Positions 24,394 through 31,354 of a stretch of DNA of 32,867 bases are shown piece after piece. Numbering within the stretch: position 1 is the first letter of the stretch; each line of letters begins with the position of its first letter. This stretch comes from Malonomonas rubra DSM 5091 (lineage in GTDB: Bacteria > Desulfobacterota > Desulfuromonadia > Desulfuromonadales > Geopsychrobacteraceae), in contig NZ_FQZT01000021.1 in assembly GCF_900142125.1 (NCBI RefSeq), positions 1-32,867 on the forward strand, read 5' to 3'. The position numbers and the translations under genes were made by a program. A model generated the notes under the pieces. That model worked only from the letters and a program-made list of their open reading frames with translations, had not been told where the DNA came from and ran no database searches.

Positions 24394-26589
24394 TCAGTGG
24401 GATTCTCCAAACCTGTCCGGATTGAAGCTTTTGATGTATTCCAGCATCTGCTCACCCGGCATCGGACGTCCGTAGTAGTAGCCCTGGGCGATACAGGCGC
24501 CGAAAGTTTTCAGATACTCGTGCTGGTCGATGGTTTCAACCCCTTCAGCAATGAAATCGAGCTGCAAGCCGTTGGATACATTGATCATCGCCGGAATGAT
24601 GGTGTTGTCGTCATCGGCTTTGACGATTTTGCGCATAAAGGATTTATCCAGCTTCAATGTGTTGAGCGGAAGCTGGTCAAGATAGCTGAGTGAAGAGTAA
24701 CCGGTGCCGAAGTCGTCGATGGCGATCTTGATGCCGTGGTTGGTCAGCTTGATGATGTTATTCAGCGTCGCTTCCATATTCTGGATCAGGACGTTCTCGG
24801 TAATCTCGATTTCAAACATGTTGAGCTGTAGTTCATAGTCGCGGATTTTGCTGATCAGGTAATCGGCAAACCCGTTCATTGCCAGCTGCACGGCGGAAAT
24901 GTTGATGCAGATGCGCGGGTTGATCCCTTCACGGTGCCAGTCACGGGCATCGCGCAAAATGTTGCGTAGAATACAGTCGCCAAGTTCGTTGATCAGGTTT
25001 GACTCTTCTGCTGTTTCAATGAATCCCGTTGGTAGAATCAGGCCATGCTCAGGAGACTTGATTCTTACCAGAGCTTCGACCGCATGCAGTTTGTCGAAGG
25101 TCAGGTCGATCTGTGGCTGGTAGTAGACTGTCAACTGGTCTTCGTTGATCGCATTGCGGATCAGGTTTTCCGTGAATACCTTGTTGCTGTTGCCGTTGGT
25201 CAAGTCCTTGCTGTACAGGCAGATGTTGCTACTGGAGCGTAGCTTCGAATGACAGACGGCGATATCTGCGTTGCGGATCAAGTCTTCCTTGTTGCTTCCG
25301 TGGTCGGGATAAATCGACAGGCCGATGCTCAGTGCCAGGTGGATTTCGGCATGCTCGAAGTGAAGCGGGAAGGACGCTTCCTGGATGACCTTGTTAGCAA
25401 CGCTAATTGCATCCTGCTCAGACTTTATTCCTGGCAGCAGAACGATAAACTCATCACCGCCGATGCGGGCGACGGTGTCGCCTTCACGAGTGCAGCGTTC
25501 CAGCATCGAGGCGACCGTTTGAATAACCTCGTCCCCCAGTACCGTTCCATAGGTGTCGTTGATCAGCTTGAAACGGTAGATGTCGATATACATAACCGCA
25601 AGCTTTTCCTGCTTGCGTTTGGCGTGGCTGAGCTGGACGGCAATGCGGTCGTTGAGCAGGTTGCGGTTCGGCAAGCCGGTCAGCAGGTCGTGGTTGTGCT
25701 GAAAGCGGATAATCTCTTCTGACCGTTTCTTTTCGGTAATGTCGCGGGCTACGCCGTAGGTGCCGACGAAGTTGACATTTTTTTCGCTACCACTACTCAG
25801 CTTGTAGCCGCCGGCAAATTTCCGTTCCACCTGCATTGCACGTACCTCAACATGCAGCAACGAGCCCTGATCTTTGCACTGCAGACGCAGCTCAACCTTT
25901 TTCGTCCCTTTCGGAAGTTTCGGTGAGGTGAAGAAATAATTGGCCCGGTTCAGATCTTTTGGATAGATGAAGGCGGAGTAGTGTTTGCCGAGCAGCTCCC
26001 GCTGCGTGTACCCGAGGGTACGGGTGAGGTTGCGGTTGACAAAAGTGAAGCAGCCGTTCTGATCGAGCATGTAGAGCAGGTCGGGCGAATTGTGTACGAG
26101 GAAGCGGTGCAGAGATTCCGATTCTTTGAGCTGGTTGATGATTTCCTGGTTCTCAATTTCCAGCGCTCTTTTTTCCAGCACATTTTTAACAGAAAACAGC
26201 AGTTCGTCAGGAGAGTAGGGCTTGCGAATAAAATCTTTGGCCCCGTTGGTCAGCACCTGAATTGCTTTGTTCAACTCAAGCTCGCCACTGACGACGATGA
26301 CATTGGTGTCGATGTTGTTTTCTTTGATGTGGTTGATGACATCGAGGCCGTCAACGTTCGGCATGTTCAGGTCAAGCAGGACGAGCCCGTATTCCTGTTG
26401 CTCGAGTGCCCGTAAAGCGGCGAAACCACCGATGACATAAGAGCAATTGAGCCCGGACGAACTGAGAATCTGCTGCAGGCTTTTGCAGATCCTTGGATCG
26501 TCATCGACGATGAGCACCTCGATCGGTGCATGTGATGCAACCCCCCCGCTAATGTGGCGCATATCAAACATGTCAGAACCTATTTTCAT
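24394..26589 (-). CDS. REC-PAS-GGDEF-EAL response regulator (c-di-GMP turnover)
   Basis: A 731-aa cytoplasmic protein. The receiver domain (about 22-138) has the acidic cluster D29-D31, the phospho-Asp D73 in LLDLNMP, S101 and K123. A PAS domain (about 160-285) follows. The diguanylate cyclase domain (about 290-455) has an intact GGDEF (377-381) and an inhibitory I-site RxxD (R368-D371) five residues before it. The phosphodiesterase domain (about 470-725) keeps EALVR, INISAVQ, EITEN, IDDFGTGYSS, KLDKS and AEGVET. Both catalytic halves therefore look competent. The stop of the upstream kinase gene abuts this ATG with no gap. That ATG lacks a good ribosome binding site, so translation is probably coupled or starts at Met7 or Met10. 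Confidence 0.93.
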   Translation of the reverse strand: MKIGSDMFDMRHISGGVASHAPIEVLIVDDDPRICKSLQQILSSSGLNCSYVIGGFAALRALEQQEYGLVLLDLNMPNVDGLDVINHIKENNIDTNVIVVSGELELNKAIQVLTNGAKDFIRKPYSPDELLFSVKNVLEKRALEIENQEIINQLKESESLHRFLVHNSPDLLYMLDQNGCFTFVNRNLTRTLGYTQRELLGKHYSAFIYPKDLNRANYFFTSPKLPKGTKKVELRLQCKDQGSLLHVEVRAMQVERKFAGGYKLSSGSEKNVNFVGTYGVARDITEKKRSEEIIRFQHNHDLLTGLPNRNLLNDRIAVQLSHAKRKQEKLAVMYIDIYRFKLINDTYGTVLGDEVIQTVASMLERCTREGDTVARIGGDEFIVLLPGIKSEQDAISVANKVIQEASFPLHFEHAEIHLALSIGLSIYPDHGSNKEDLIRNADIAVCHSKLRSSSNICLYSKDLTNGNSNKVFTENLIRNAINEDQLTVYYQPQIDLTFDKLHAVEALVRIKSPEHGLILPTGFIETAEESNLINELGDCILRNILRDARDWHREGINPRICINISAVQLAMNGFADYLISKIRDYELQLNMFEIEITENVLIQNMEATLNNIIKLTNHGIKIAIDDFGTGYSSLSYLDQLPLNTLKLDKSFMRKIVKADDDNTIIPAMINVSNGLQLDFIAEGVETIDQHEYLKTFGACIAQGYYYGRPMPGEQMLEYIKSFNPDRFGESH

Positions 26590-28716
26590 TTAGTCAGCAG
26601 GCAAACTTTCAATCAGCCGGGGCAGCAAGATTTTGAACTCGGTTCCTGCACCTTGGCTCGAGTAACAGGATATTGTGCCGGACATCTCCTTGATTAAATC
26701 AGCGACAATCGACAGTCCCAGGCCGGAGTGTCCTTTTTTCGTGCTTTCGACGGGACGGAAAAGATTCTGCAGGACATGGTCCGGGATGCCCGGCCCGTTA
26801 TCCCTGATGCTTAATTCAACAAAACGGTTGCCATTCTGAAAGCAGTTGTCGCGTGTACTGATGCTGATGCTGCCTTTTTCCTGCATCGCTTCAACTGCAT
26901 TTTTAACGATATTGATGATGACCTGCTTCAGGCTGTTCTCCGGAAGCTGTAGCACCGGAAGCTGCAGGTCAAGATGCAATTGCGGCTCGATTTCTTTTGC
27001 ATTGTAGAGGGAGTTGCCAAAGAAGTCATTCAGTTCGTGGATCAGCTTGTTGAGATCAACCTGCTGGGCACCTCCGGGCTGCTGCTGCCGCTCACGTGCA
27101 TTTGCCAGGATAACGCCGACCCGCTCCATTTCCTCTTTGATGAAATCGATTTCCTCCAGCGCCGGATGGTCTTCTTCCAGTTTGCGACCAAGGATGTAGA
27201 GGTAGTTGTTTATGATGGTCAGAGGGTTTTTTACCTCATGAACGATTTTGTTGAACTCGGTCATGCTGATGTTTTCTTCGTCCGGTTCTGCAGCGTTGAA
27301 CTCAAGGTACTTTTTGCCGATTTCAATCAGCAGTAGCTCAAGCAGTGGCAGCTTCTCCTTCAGGCCGGGCAGCTCTTTACGGCTGCTGCCGATCGCCAGT
27401 ACACCGGCTTTTTCGGTCTTGCCCGAAACCGGGAGGAAACAGGCACACTCGGCACCGAGGATACGGGTCAGCTGCCGATCGATAATGGATCCCTGCTGCT
27501 TCATTGAATCGAGAGTCTGCCCCTGGTTAAAACTTTTTACCAAGACACTGTTTTTATCGCTCAGGTTGAAGGCGATTTCATCCAGCTTTGCCAGCTTCAG
27601 GTCATTGTCAGCGACCAACCTGCTGCCATCCGGGGTCAGGGAGAAGAAACAAATTTGCTTGAGATTGAACAGCAGGTCCAGGTTTATTCGCAGTTCTTTG
27701 ACCAGGCTGCTGATGTCCTTGCTTTCGCCGTTGAGGAAACAGTGAGTCAGGGCAATATTTTTAATTCGTTCTGCCAACTCGTCAGCTTTCTGATCACGCG
27801 CCTGCATGACAGCCTCTGGCGAATCCTCCTCGTTGAAATGAACGCCGGGGAAGCCGAGTTGAGCAAGAACCTGTTTGGTGTCGTCTAGGGCCATTGCCAG
27901 GCACTCTAGACAGATGTCGGGGAGCAGTTGCAACAAATCTCCTGCCTTGGTGATGTCTTCTTCAGCAACATCTGTGTCGGGAGGTGAAGAGAGCGCGCTG
28001 GCAACAGATACAATTTTCAGCAAGGTCGGAGAGTTGAGCAGTTGCTCGGTATCGCTGTGCTGGAACTGAATCGCATCGGAAATCAGCGAATCAAGCTGCC
28101 AGCTCTCGATCAGTGTTGCACCAACCTCACAGTGATCGATGCCATAGTTCGTCTGCTCCAGTTCACAGAAATCGCGGCCATTTTCATAGTGTTCGAGAAT
28201 CTGCTGGTAGTTTTCCTTGTAATTGATCAGCAGCAGGAGAATTCCGACCTGGTGCAAAAGCCCGGCAAGATAGGCTTCTTCAGTTTTCGGGTAGCCTATT
28301 TTGCGGGCTATCTGCTCAGCGAGGTGCGCGCAGAGCAGCGAACGTAGCCAGAGTTGATACTGTTGGGGATCTTTGCTTTTCGCCAGCTTGCTGAAGAAAT
28401 TCTGGACCGCACTGGTGATAATGATCTTGCGGATGTTCTTCAACCCAAGGACAACCAGCATTCGCTTCAGGTCTGTGAGCTCATTCCACTGGCGATAGAG
28501 GGGAGAATTGGCAAGTTTGAGAAACTGGGATGTCAGACCGGCGTCTTTCTTTATCGCCTGGGTATATTGCTCAAAGCCAGCGTCGTCATTGCTGCACAGA
28601 TCAAGCAGTTCGACCAGCAGTCCGGCTTCGGACGGCAGGTTGTCAACGGCAAAACTCCTGTCTTTAAGATAGATACGCTGCATATCTATCATCAGCCTTT
28701 CGTGATTGTTTAGCAT
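26590..28716 (-). CDS. HDOD-GAF-like-histidine kinase
   Basis: A 708-aa cytoplasmic sensor kinase without membrane segments. The HDOD domain (about 20-235) contains FLKLANSPLYRQ, RMLVVLGLKNIRKII and AYLAGLLHQVGILLL. A GAF-like region (about 335-470) follows. The kinase core has the H box IVHEVKNPLTIINNYL with phospho-acceptor H493, the N box IVKNAVEAM (N606), and the ATP-binding boxes DNGPGIP (639-645) and GHSGLGLSIV (662-671). It is followed with zero gap by the REC-PAS-GGDEF-EAL gene, its probable phosphotransfer partner. ATG 28716 is the longest start; Met9, with AAAGG just upstream, is a plausible alternative. The signal sensed is unknown. Confidence 0.92.
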   Translation of the reverse strand: MLNNHERLMIDMQRIYLKDRSFAVDNLPSEAGLLVELLDLCSNDDAGFEQYTQAIKKDAGLTSQFLKLANSPLYRQWNELTDLKRMLVVLGLKNIRKIIITSAVQNFFSKLAKSKDPQQYQLWLRSLLCAHLAEQIARKIGYPKTEEAYLAGLLHQVGILLLLINYKENYQQILEHYENGRDFCELEQTNYGIDHCEVGATLIESWQLDSLISDAIQFQHSDTEQLLNSPTLLKIVSVASALSSPPDTDVAEEDITKAGDLLQLLPDICLECLAMALDDTKQVLAQLGFPGVHFNEEDSPEAVMQARDQKADELAERIKNIALTHCFLNGESKDISSLVKELRINLDLLFNLKQICFFSLTPDGSRLVADNDLKLAKLDEIAFNLSDKNSVLVKSFNQGQTLDSMKQQGSIIDRQLTRILGAECACFLPVSGKTEKAGVLAIGSSRKELPGLKEKLPLLELLLIEIGKKYLEFNAAEPDEENISMTEFNKIVHEVKNPLTIINNYLYILGRKLEEDHPALEEIDFIKEEMERVGVILANARERQQQPGGAQQVDLNKLIHELNDFFGNSLYNAKEIEPQLHLDLQLPVLQLPENSLKQVIINIVKNAVEAMQEKGSISISTRDNCFQNGNRFVELSIRDNGPGIPDHVLQNLFRPVESTKKGHSGLGLSIVADLIKEMSGTISCYSSQGAGTEFKILLPRLIESLPAD

Positions 28717-29037: not shown

Positions 29038-29066
29038 ACGCTAAAGCTATCGTGAAGGAGGTAGTT

Positions 29067-30392
29067 ATGTTTAACGGGAAGATCGTGGCGTTCGGGGTGC
29101 TTATCGCCGGGATGCTTTATTTTGCCGGCATTGCCGGGTCCTCAAGCTGTGTCGATTGCCATACCGACGTTGCCAAGCTCAAGGCGATTGCTAAAACATT
29201 GCCGAAAAAAGAGGCTTCGGCGGAAACTGCGGGCAAAGGCTGAGGCGGCTCAGTGGCTCCGTTGGAGCTACATGAAAAAGTTCTGGTTGCGAAAGATTTT
29301 CTGGAAACAACCCATGGCTCGATGGCCTGTACCGACTGCCACGGTGGTGATAATAAAAGTGACAATATGAAAAAAGCGCACGTCGGCATGACGGCAGATC
29401 CCACTTTCCCGGATGCCACCGCAGCTTGTGGGGAGTGCCACGCCGAAGAGGCCAAGCTTGCCAAAACCTCGCTGCACTATACTTTGGCAACTTATAAGCC
29501 GATTGTGCATCAGCGGGCATCAACCGATCCTGAAAAGTTGCAGAAGCTCAACCAGGGGATGGACAACCACTGTTATAGCTGTCACGCCAGCTGCGGCGAG
29601 TGCCATGTCAGTCGGCCCAATTTTGCCAAGGGTGGTTTTATCTCCGGGCACAATTTCAATAAGACTCCGGATCAGACCAATCAGTGCACGGCTTGCCACG
29701 GTAGCCGGGTCGGAAATGAGTTCACCGGCAAGACCGGTTCGGGAGACGCCCACTATACCAAGCACGATATGGACTGTATGTCCTGTCACAGTACCAAAGA
29801 TCTGCATGGTGACGGCAAGAGCGATCACCGCGACCGCTACGATGTCAAGGGGCTGTCAGCTTGTGCGGACTGCCACCAATTGGACGACAGTGTCGAGCAG
29901 CACGCTATTCATGGTGACAAGGTGTCCTGCTACGTTTGCCACGCTCAGCCTTACGCCAACTGCTATGGTTGCCATGTCGGTCTCGATAGTAAAGGACTGG
30001 CCTACTATAAAAATCCTGACGAGGAGGAACTGTTCCGGATCGGTTTGAACCCGCTGCAAGACGAGGTGCATCCGGAAAAATGGATCCTGGTACGGAGAAC
30101 ACCTTCGGTGCCGACCTCTTTCGATTTTTATGGTAAAGAGCTGATGCCGAACTTTGACCGCCTCAATAACTGGAAGTATGCTTCGCCGCACAATCTCCAG
30201 AAGAAGACCAGTCAAAACCGCGAGTGTAACAATTGTCACGGTAATAAGGACCTGTTCCTGACCGAAGACAAGGTTAAACCCGAGTTCCGTAAAGCCAACG
30301 CCAAGGTGATTGTTGCGGATAAGTTGATCCCTGAAAAGCAGGCCGAGGCTGAGCAAAAAGAAGAACCTAAGAAGAAGCGCAGTTATTTTTAA
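29067..30392 (+). CDS. Selenocysteine-containing multiheme (11-haem) c-type cytochrome, possibly ExtKL-like
   Basis: One reading frame from ATG 29067 (GAAGGAGG six bases upstream) to 30392 is interrupted only by UGA at 29241-29243, codon 59. Residues 1-24 form a short basic and hydrophobic export signal, and C28-H32 (CVDCH) is haem site 1. After the UGA come ten more CxxCH sites: 88-92, 121-125, 169-173, 176-180, 207-211, 237-241, 266-270, 288-292, 299-303 and 387-391. The C-terminus is Lys/Glu rich. Without readthrough the ten-haem part would have no signal peptide and could not be matured as cytochrome c. A SECIS-like hairpin follows the UGA, so I read codon 59 as Sec in KGUGGS (441 aa in total). 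The likely role is periplasmic or outer-surface electron transfer. ExtKL-type cytochromes of Geobacter ext operons are my best family guess, unverified. A nonsense mutation or two separate proteins are the alternatives. Confidence 0.78.
29250..29275 (+). promoter_or_regulatory. Bacterial SECIS-like hairpin after in-frame UGA
   Basis: The arms GUGGCUCC (29253-29260) and GGAGCUAC (29264-29271) form an 8-bp stem (one G-U pair) with the 3-nt apical loop GUU (29261-29263). After one bulged A (29272) the stem extends by UCA/UGA (29250-29252 with 29273-29275). The loop begins G-U and starts 17 nt after the UGA. Known bacterial SECIS elements have a G at the first or second loop position and a UGA-to-loop distance of roughly 16-37 nt, so the geometry fits. 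The function is inferred. Confidence 0.7.
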
Positions 30393-30442: not shown

Positions 30443-31354
30443 ATGAAGCGTCTGACACATCTTTTGTTGGTAGCAATTATGGTTCTGGCGGTAGTCCCGT
30501 TTACCGCTGCAGAAGCACTTGCAGAGAAAGTTTTTGTCAAGGCTGAGCAGGTTGCCGAACTGATTGAGGCCGGTGCTCCAAAGCTGCGTGTTATCGATTG
30601 CCGGCTGGAAGAAAAAGACTACAAAAAAGGCCATGTCCCTGGCGCCGTCTATATGAATGTGCGCAAAGACCTGCGGATGAAAGGGGCGTGGGATACGATC
30701 GGTGTCCGTCGCCAAATCGAAGCTCAAGAGGAACTCTTCGGTCGCCAGCTTGGCATCGATAGCGATACCATGGTGGTGCTCTATGATGATGAAGGCTGGG
30801 ATGCGACCCGCCTATTCTGGGAACTGAAATATACCGGTCATGAAAAAGTTGCAATCATCTTCGGTGGCTGGCCGGAGTGGCAGAGCAACAAGCTCCCGGT
30901 CTCCAAAGATGTCCCGAAAATTGAGCCGGCATTGTTTGTTGCTGATGTCCAGCCGGAGCTGTTGGCAACTTCCAGTTATATCATGAGTAAAATGGGTGAT
31001 CCGAATACCGTACTGCTCGACGTGCGTCCGCCGGAACAGTTCAAGGGCGATGCCAAGCATCCAGCAGCCAAAATCGGTGGCCGCCTGCCAAGCGCAGTCA
31101 ACGCTTTCACCCTGGCAAACTGGGAAAACAAGACCTACCTGAAAAACCCGGCAGAACTTGTTGAGATGTATGCTGATCTGGGTGTGACTCCGGATAAAGA
31201 GATCGTTCTTTACTGTAATACCGGCTACTACGCAGCAAACAGCTACTTTATCCTCAAGGCACTCGACTTCCCGAACGTTCGCGTTTATGACTATTCTTGG
31301 GTTGAGTGGAATGGTAAAGGGCATCTGCCGAAGATTGTCGGCAAAGCCAAGTAA
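30443..31354 (+). CDS. Exported tandem rhodanese-like sulfurtransferase
   Basis: A 303-aa protein with a Sec signal peptide (residues 1-27, ALA before E28), so it is probably periplasmic; no lipobox Cys is present. It has two rhodanese domains. Domain 1 (about 30-155) has LRVIDCRLEEKDYKKGHVPG and DEGWDATRLFWELKYTGHEK, but Asp residues (LYDDEGWD, 114-120) replace the active-site Cys, so it is probably non-catalytic. Domain 2 (about 170-298) has VLLDVRPPEQFKG and the active loop LYCNTGYYAA with C258. It follows the cytochrome by 50 bp with an AAAGGAG ribosome binding site and precedes a terminator, so the two likely form an operon. Rhodanese-like proteins also accompany Ext-type cytochromes; ExtH is one possibility, unverified. 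Confidence 0.9.
   Translation: MKRLTHLLLVAIMVLAVVPFTAAEALAEKVFVKAEQVAELIEAGAPKLRVIDCRLEEKDYKKGHVPGAVYMNVRKDLRMKGAWDTIGVRRQIEAQEELFGRQLGIDSDTMVVLYDDEGWDATRLFWELKYTGHEKVAIIFGGWPEWQSNKLPVSKDVPKIEPALFVADVQPELLATSSYIMSKMGDPNTVLLDVRPPEQFKGDAKHPAAKIGGRLPSAVNAFTLANWENKTYLKNPAELVEMYADLGVTPDKEIVLYCNTGYYAANSYFILKALDFPNVRVYDYSWVEWNGKGHLPKIVGKAK

Follow-up and report, generated by a model that had tools for sequence, protein, structure and literature searches.

In Wolinella, the periplasmic rhodanese Sud works with polysulfide reductase (Psr), which is a molybdenum enzyme. Among c-type cytochromes, a single UGA-encoded selenocysteine (Sec) is carried by ExtKL (NF040886) of the Geobacter ext cluster, for which the available text of PMC1914089 and PMC5877670 gives five haems in the N-terminal part; the same cluster includes ExtM (NF040943), a 12-haem protein, and places a rhodanese-like protein alongside the Sec cytochrome (PMC5877670, available text). 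A 2026 inventory (PMC13188914) counts 119 families or subfamilies of prokaryotic selenoproteins; in its available text, the entries that are cytochromes or have CxxCH are ExtKL, GSU2204 and the octahaem TIGR04315 protein, whose Sec form is given as GenBank-annotated, and ExtM is absent from the selenoproteins in that text.

The window analysed here, a stretch of 32,867 nucleotides from Malonomonas rubra DSM 5091 that is contig 42 of the 3.96-Mb genome, contains a gene pair (Table 1) that resembles Sud/Psr in idea, namely the supply of sulfane sulfur by a periplasmic rhodanese to a respiratory reductase, but in which the place of the molybdenum enzyme would be taken by an 11-haem Sec cytochrome. 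The pair is best read as representing a new selenoprotein family, in which 11-haem cytochromes work together with a periplasmic rhodanese. Like ExtKL, the window protein is a predicted c-type cytochrome with one UGA-encoded Sec and a rhodanese-like neighbour; unlike ExtKL it has 11 haem sites, with the Sec codon between haems 1 and 2. Identity with ExtKL was rejected on the lack of an NF040886 match, that model giving only weak matches at other places in the genome. By members matched, the nearest NCBIfam model is ExtM, which is hit by 49 of the 57 UGA-containing family members of our first alignment (described below) with a best E of 1.6e-13, the lowest to any NCBIfam model among them; the window cytochrome scores 32.6 bits against the ExtM cut-off of 800 and reaches no cut-off in NCBIfam 20.0. 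TIGR04315 also describes a multihaem cytochrome named for a sulfur compound (tetrathionate reductase family octahaem), but it has eight haems rather than 11 and is matched at E 0.001 by six of the 57 members, the window protein not among them; identity with octahaem tetrathionate reductase was likewise set aside, as was that of the downstream rhodanese with ExtH (NF040901), to which it scores 52.6 bits against a cut-off of 200. The window protein was unmatched to the entries in the available text of PMC13188914, and no description of an 11-haem Sec cytochrome was found in the titles and abstract openings searched or in the available text of PMC9312934, PMC1914089, PMC8318568, PMC5877670, PMC11976967 and PMC12545173; a record of this family may already exist, since annotated GenBank and RefSeq proteins lay outside that search.

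Table 1. Features of the cytochrome-rhodanese locus in window coordinates.
Feature	Position	Strand	Details and basis
Ribosome binding site AAGGAGG	29055..29061	+	5 nt upstream of ATG; sequence
Predicted 11-haem Sec cytochrome gene, UGA read as Sec	29067..30392	+	441 aa plus TAA; sequence, homologues
Putative export signal region, hydrophobic N-terminus	29067..29147, end approximate	+	by eye; AF2 helix at residues 4-20
Haem 1 site CVDCH, the sole haem site 5' of the UGA	29148..29162	+	sequence
In-frame UGA, codon 59, predicted Sec	29241..29243	+	UGA in 71/78 family rows; Sec machinery
SECIS-like hairpin	29253..29271	+	8-bp stem, apical loop GUU, 9 nt after UGA; stem scores, covariation
Tandem rhodanese with signal-like N-terminus	30443..31354	+	303 aa, 50 nt downstream of the cytochrome; Pfam PF00581

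Re-reading the frame from the sequence bore out the first-pass annotation of this DNA in its coordinates, its single UGA at codon 59 and its haem-site counts: between ATG 29067 and the TAA at 30390-30392 the frame contains only this UGA, and read-through would yield 441 residues with a hydrophobic N-terminal segment and 11 CxxCH motifs, one before the UGA and ten after it. Haem 1 falls at residues 28-32 and haem 2 at residues 88-92, with the UGA between them. The 11 motifs, a Pfam PF14522 match above cut-off and an export signal recognized by eye identify the product as a multihaem cytochrome, apparently exported and of c type; its Pfam matches are all to cytochrome families. The structure model of the window cytochrome has a pLDDT of 80.2 and a pTM of 0.78, and no PDB fold match was obtained for it at E up to 0.001. 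An Rfam search around the gene gave nine matches, none of which reached its gathering score (best E 0.022), and promoter and terminator scans gave no excess over shuffles. Two minus-strand genes before the pair (24394-28716) encode, according to Pfam, an HDOD-histidine kinase and a PAS/GGDEF/EAL response regulator, which are possible regulators of the pair.

The rhodanese partner does not appear in the first-pass annotation. Its gene product matches PF00581 at 2.7e-36, carries a YCNTG active-site loop in the second domain and aligns with solved sulfurtransferases at a best E of 8.2e-35; both the domains and the Cys active-site loop are those of a rhodanese/sulfurtransferase. A rhodanese lies directly downstream of the cytochrome at 50 of 61 loci in our first set and is present at 18 of 20 in the second. 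Elsewhere in the first set it is fused in frame to the cytochrome, either at the C-terminus (L096, L108) or at the N-terminus (L097, L118, L119), is encoded in another frame overlapping the cytochrome end (L104), or lies upstream (L099); two loci end within 167 and 87 nt of the cytochrome (L070 and L100, respectively), and at L110 and the distant L117 no rhodanese was found among the loci inspected. The N-terminal fusions are 885 to 913 aa long and have a lipoprotein-like N-terminus by eye, and an AlphaFold model of a natural rhodanese-cytochrome fusion (894 aa) reached a pLDDT of 45.5. Locus L095 (403-9020) is a long operon encoding a Sec cytochrome, a rhodanese, a multihaem protein, a second rhodanese, another multihaem protein whose cytochrome b561 matches fall short of the cut-off, ResB and CcsB, an arrangement that might be expected of a chain joined to the quinone pool.

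Rhodaneses carry sulfane sulfur, and sulfur is therefore favoured as the substrate. We propose, with good though not full confidence, that the Sec-decoded periplasmic 11-haem cytochrome and the rhodanese form a sulfane-sulfur or polysulfide (or Se/Te) oxidoreductase pair. In this scheme the UGA at codon 59 would be decoded as Sec by tRNA-Sec and SelB under the direction of the hairpin that starts 9 nt past the UGA. In the resulting periplasmic 11-haem cytochrome, the Sec would lie in a glycine-rich segment (G-Sec-G/A) between the first and second haems. Its partner, the tandem rhodanese whose gene comes next, would offer a persulfide carrying sulfane sulfur or possibly selenium, the selenolate would attack this persulfide to form an Se-S bond, and the haem chain would give or take electrons. 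Incorporation in vivo, export, the direction of electron flow and contact with the rhodanese are what we infer from sequence, and the substrate we infer from the rhodanese alone. The role that the first-pass annotation had offered for the Sec, a redox or substrate-binding site, is a plausible candidate.

Of the 71 Sec rows in our joint family alignment, 70 have every one of the 11 haem motifs in place, the remaining row being cut off by a contig end; in L109-L111 one motif takes the form CxxxCH. Nine non-motif His are invariant; with only nine for 11 haems, two haems lack an invariant distal His and may have an open site or a different ligand. Arg214 is present in 71/71 Sec rows and in 4/7 Sec-less rows. 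SoxA and TsdA have Cys-ligated haems, of which a His/Sec haem site would be the selenium analogue. A Sec placed at an open haem, or serving as its ligand, would make a His/Sec site for sulfur-atom chemistry on a rhodanese-delivered persulfide; we nevertheless judge this improbable, as no Sec-less member has His, Cys or Met in place of the Sec.

The strongest competitor to the sulfane-sulfur pair is that the two proteins act on oxyanions of selenium or tellurium, or on other extracellular acceptors, in the way proposed for the Geobacter ext cluster, with the rhodanese carrying selenium in place of sulfur. By analogy with that cluster a selenium or tellurium substrate is possible: there, too, a rhodanese (ExtH) is joined to a Sec cytochrome (ExtKL), and loss of the porin ExtI impairs selenite and tellurite reduction (PMC5877670, available text), to which the weak ExtM match in 49/57 members may be added. 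The likeness does not extend to the proteins themselves, the window cytochrome being no ExtKL and the rhodanese falling far short of the ExtH cut-off, and a scan of six window proteins (the pair and four neighbours) found no porin or ext gene above cut-off. We consider this explanation rather unlikely. Less likely still is a protective or repair function of the Sec (clearance of peroxide, disulfide or persulfide) instead of one in respiration. In its favour, many selenoproteins are homologous to thiol oxidoreductases (PMC13188914, available text), but in the present family the only Cys among the most conserved columns, besides the Sec column, are those of the haem motifs, the Pfam matches point to cytochromes throughout, and the L095 operon adds two further multihaem proteins, one of them with a weak cytochrome b561 match.

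The pair so read depends on Sec insertion at codon 59, which is well supported by sequence. An order-level search of 136 genomes (E up to 1e-20) gave matches in 14, the own genome included, and a phylum-level profile search of 395 genomes (E up to 1e-40) gave matches in 48. Alignment of 63 rows from the fetched loci, with the duplicates L114 and L120 omitted, showed UGA at the codon 59 column in 58, of which 57 were kept, the window among them, after L112 was dropped; of the remaining rows, L096 and the distant L117 have Tyr, and L108, L115 and a second L112 piece do not cover the column. L112 (G454:C28) is a frame-broken second cytochrome copy in a genome that also has the Sec copy L084. A further class of 46 genomes, 29 with matches, contributed 20 fetched loci, 14 with the UGA and six without. 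A scan of genome contigs yielded three contigs of metagenome-assembled genomes (MAGs), from Desulfuromonadaceae GLR9, Desulfuromusa GH17 and Proteobacteria ZodW. In the joint alignment of 78 rows, with identities down to 31%, the column holds Sec in 71, Pro in five, Gln in one and Tyr in one, so that a single in-frame UGA is conserved across divergent homologues. Since the UGA stands at the same column in 57 loci of the first set and 14 of the 20 of the second, its presence is not due to chance. Cys at the Sec position in some homologues is the usual support for a selenoprotein, not a requirement. That argument is missing here, because the Sec-less members have Pro, Gln or Tyr; Cys occurs at the column in 0/78 rows, in a collection whose profiles were built from Sec members and which distant Cys forms may have escaped.

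A bacterial SECIS element is a hairpin just downstream of the UGA with a G or GU in its apical loop. The window hairpin, GTGGCTCC-GTT-GGAGCTAC, conforms to this pattern, and stem scores and covariation across the family agree with it. In 57/57 loci the top-scoring stem after the UGA carries GT in its loop; the mean stem score is 6.42 at the site versus 3.26 in 1,767 control stretches taken from these genes, and scores of at least 6.5 are reached by 44% of sites versus 4.6% of controls. Hairpins were aligned by sequence type in sets of 24 and 27 rows, L077, L102 and L104-L107 (6/57) being omitted. The 24-row set has 92.7% of cells paired and 13 double-change cells versus 3.0 in shuffles, and the 27-row set 85.7% and nine versus 2.3. 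In both sets pairing, double-change cells and covariation score were matched by 0/500 shuffles, with the caveat that kinship alone can lift sequences above shuffles without structure; the other two of the five measures, pairs with double changes and further pair types, were matched 18 and 19 times in 500 shuffles of the 24-row set and six and seven times in those of the 27-row set. Sliding the pairing partner lowers pairing to 29-52%, and at the +1 slide of the 24-row set ten double-change cells are seen yet only 39.6% of cells are paired.

Five members (L067, L068, L070, L072 and L073) carry a double amino-acid swap from APLE to EPLA, by which GCTCC-GTT-GGAGC becomes GAGCC-GTT-GGCTC (GGCCC in L073) and the stem is preserved. 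Pro-Leu at the hairpin loop is encoded CCG-TTG in 23/23 Pro-Leu members; elsewhere in the same genes TTG makes up 18% of Leu codons and CCG 31% of Pro codons. Synonymous shuffles gave a mean z of -1.18 at the hairpin versus -0.34 to +0.08 at seven control offsets, with only 14/57 single hairpins in the best 5%. A covariance model of the 27-row set (E up to 10) matched the bases directly after the UGA in 14/14 held-out Sec loci and in 0/6 Sec-less loci, a score that does not reflect structure alone, since the coding sequence is conserved and some held-out loci are close kin. R2, the model of the 24-row set, matches the window site by construction. It also located the site correctly in L077 (E 0.004) and L118 (E 6.8) but failed to find it in the five loci of a third sequence type (L102, L104, L105, L106 and L107).

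The own genome encodes the machinery to read such an element. A tRNA-Sec was found at 69.9 bits, above the Rfam cut-off and with anticodon tca by ARAGORN, and selA (587.9 bits), selB (352.7 bits) and selD (358.1 bits), all above cut-off, lie side by side at C29:415274-419584. The selD match (G000:C29:415274-416200, L029) contains one in-frame TGA, and SelD is on that account probably a selenoprotein itself. SelB was above cut-off in 29 of 30 chosen relatives' genomes, namely in 21/21 with a UGA copy seen and 8/9 others, so that its presence alone is not discriminating; the sole miss, G058, is 88% complete. The first-pass annotation had read the UGA as probable Sec, noting that Sec insertion calls for a following SECIS hairpin, and had named the Sec genes and the homologues' codon 59 as the places to look: the conserved UGA and the covarying hairpin strongly support its reading, all four Sec genes are present, and UGA, with no Cys form, is found in 71 of 78 rows. 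Homologues with neither Sec nor Cys, which it had counted as evidence against Sec, do exist, but they amount to seven of the 78 rows, and the other 71 keep Sec. The cytochrome very probably contains selenocysteine.

Against this background, a genuine stop or a sequencing error at codon 59, leaving the gene broken or its second part restarting at GTG 29253, is very improbable. UGA is a stop under Table 11 and the GTG follows only 9 nt on, but the same UGA recurs at the same column in 71 loci from many assemblies. The GTG lies in the 5' arm of the hairpin stem and is not a conserved start, being GTG in only 15 of the 24 rows of the closest type (otherwise GTT, GTA, GTC, CTG or TTG), with CCT at this place in most rows of the other sequence type; the part after the UGA has no signal peptide yet keeps ten haem sites. 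Decoding of the UGA as another amino acid (a suppressor tRNA, Trp), for which the sole point is that the frame is open under any UGA reading, is scarcely credible, given that TGA terminates 5/21 window genes inspected (gene names by eye) and several relatives' cytochrome copies, that tRNA-Sec and SelB are present in the genome, and that the stem loop has GT in 57/57 loci, whereas the Sec-less members tested have a weak hairpin or none.

Those Sec-less members are seven full-length rows, all of which keep the 11 haem-motif positions, with a rhodanese alongside or fused in six. L159-L164 (genomes G539, G538, G527, G531, G542 and G535, respectively) are Sec-less 11-haem paralogues with Pro or Gln, five of the six with a rhodanese alongside, and four genomes (G527, G531, G535, G539) have both a Sec and a Sec-less copy. 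On the tree the Sec-less rows require two changes, six rows forming one clade and L096 standing on a long branch. Stem scores are 0 to 5 in six Sec-less rows (L096, L159-L163) versus 4 to 9 in Sec rows, ranges that touch. We read the Sec-less members as losses of Sec, because of the two tree changes and the weak or absent hairpin in the six tested. Judging from the retained haem motifs and the rhodanese in 6/7, some paralogues can do without Sec.

Gene prediction with UGA as a stop truncates the cytochrome at codon 59 and hides the protein. The conserved UGA together with the rhodanese pairing suggests that sulfur or metalloid chemistry includes a selenium-dependent step not described before. 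If confirmed, this would be a widespread selenoprotein family whose Sec belongs to a multihaem electron-transfer protein and is linked with a rhodanese, and it would provide a testable candidate for periplasmic electron movement to or from zero-valent sulfur (or selenium or tellurium).
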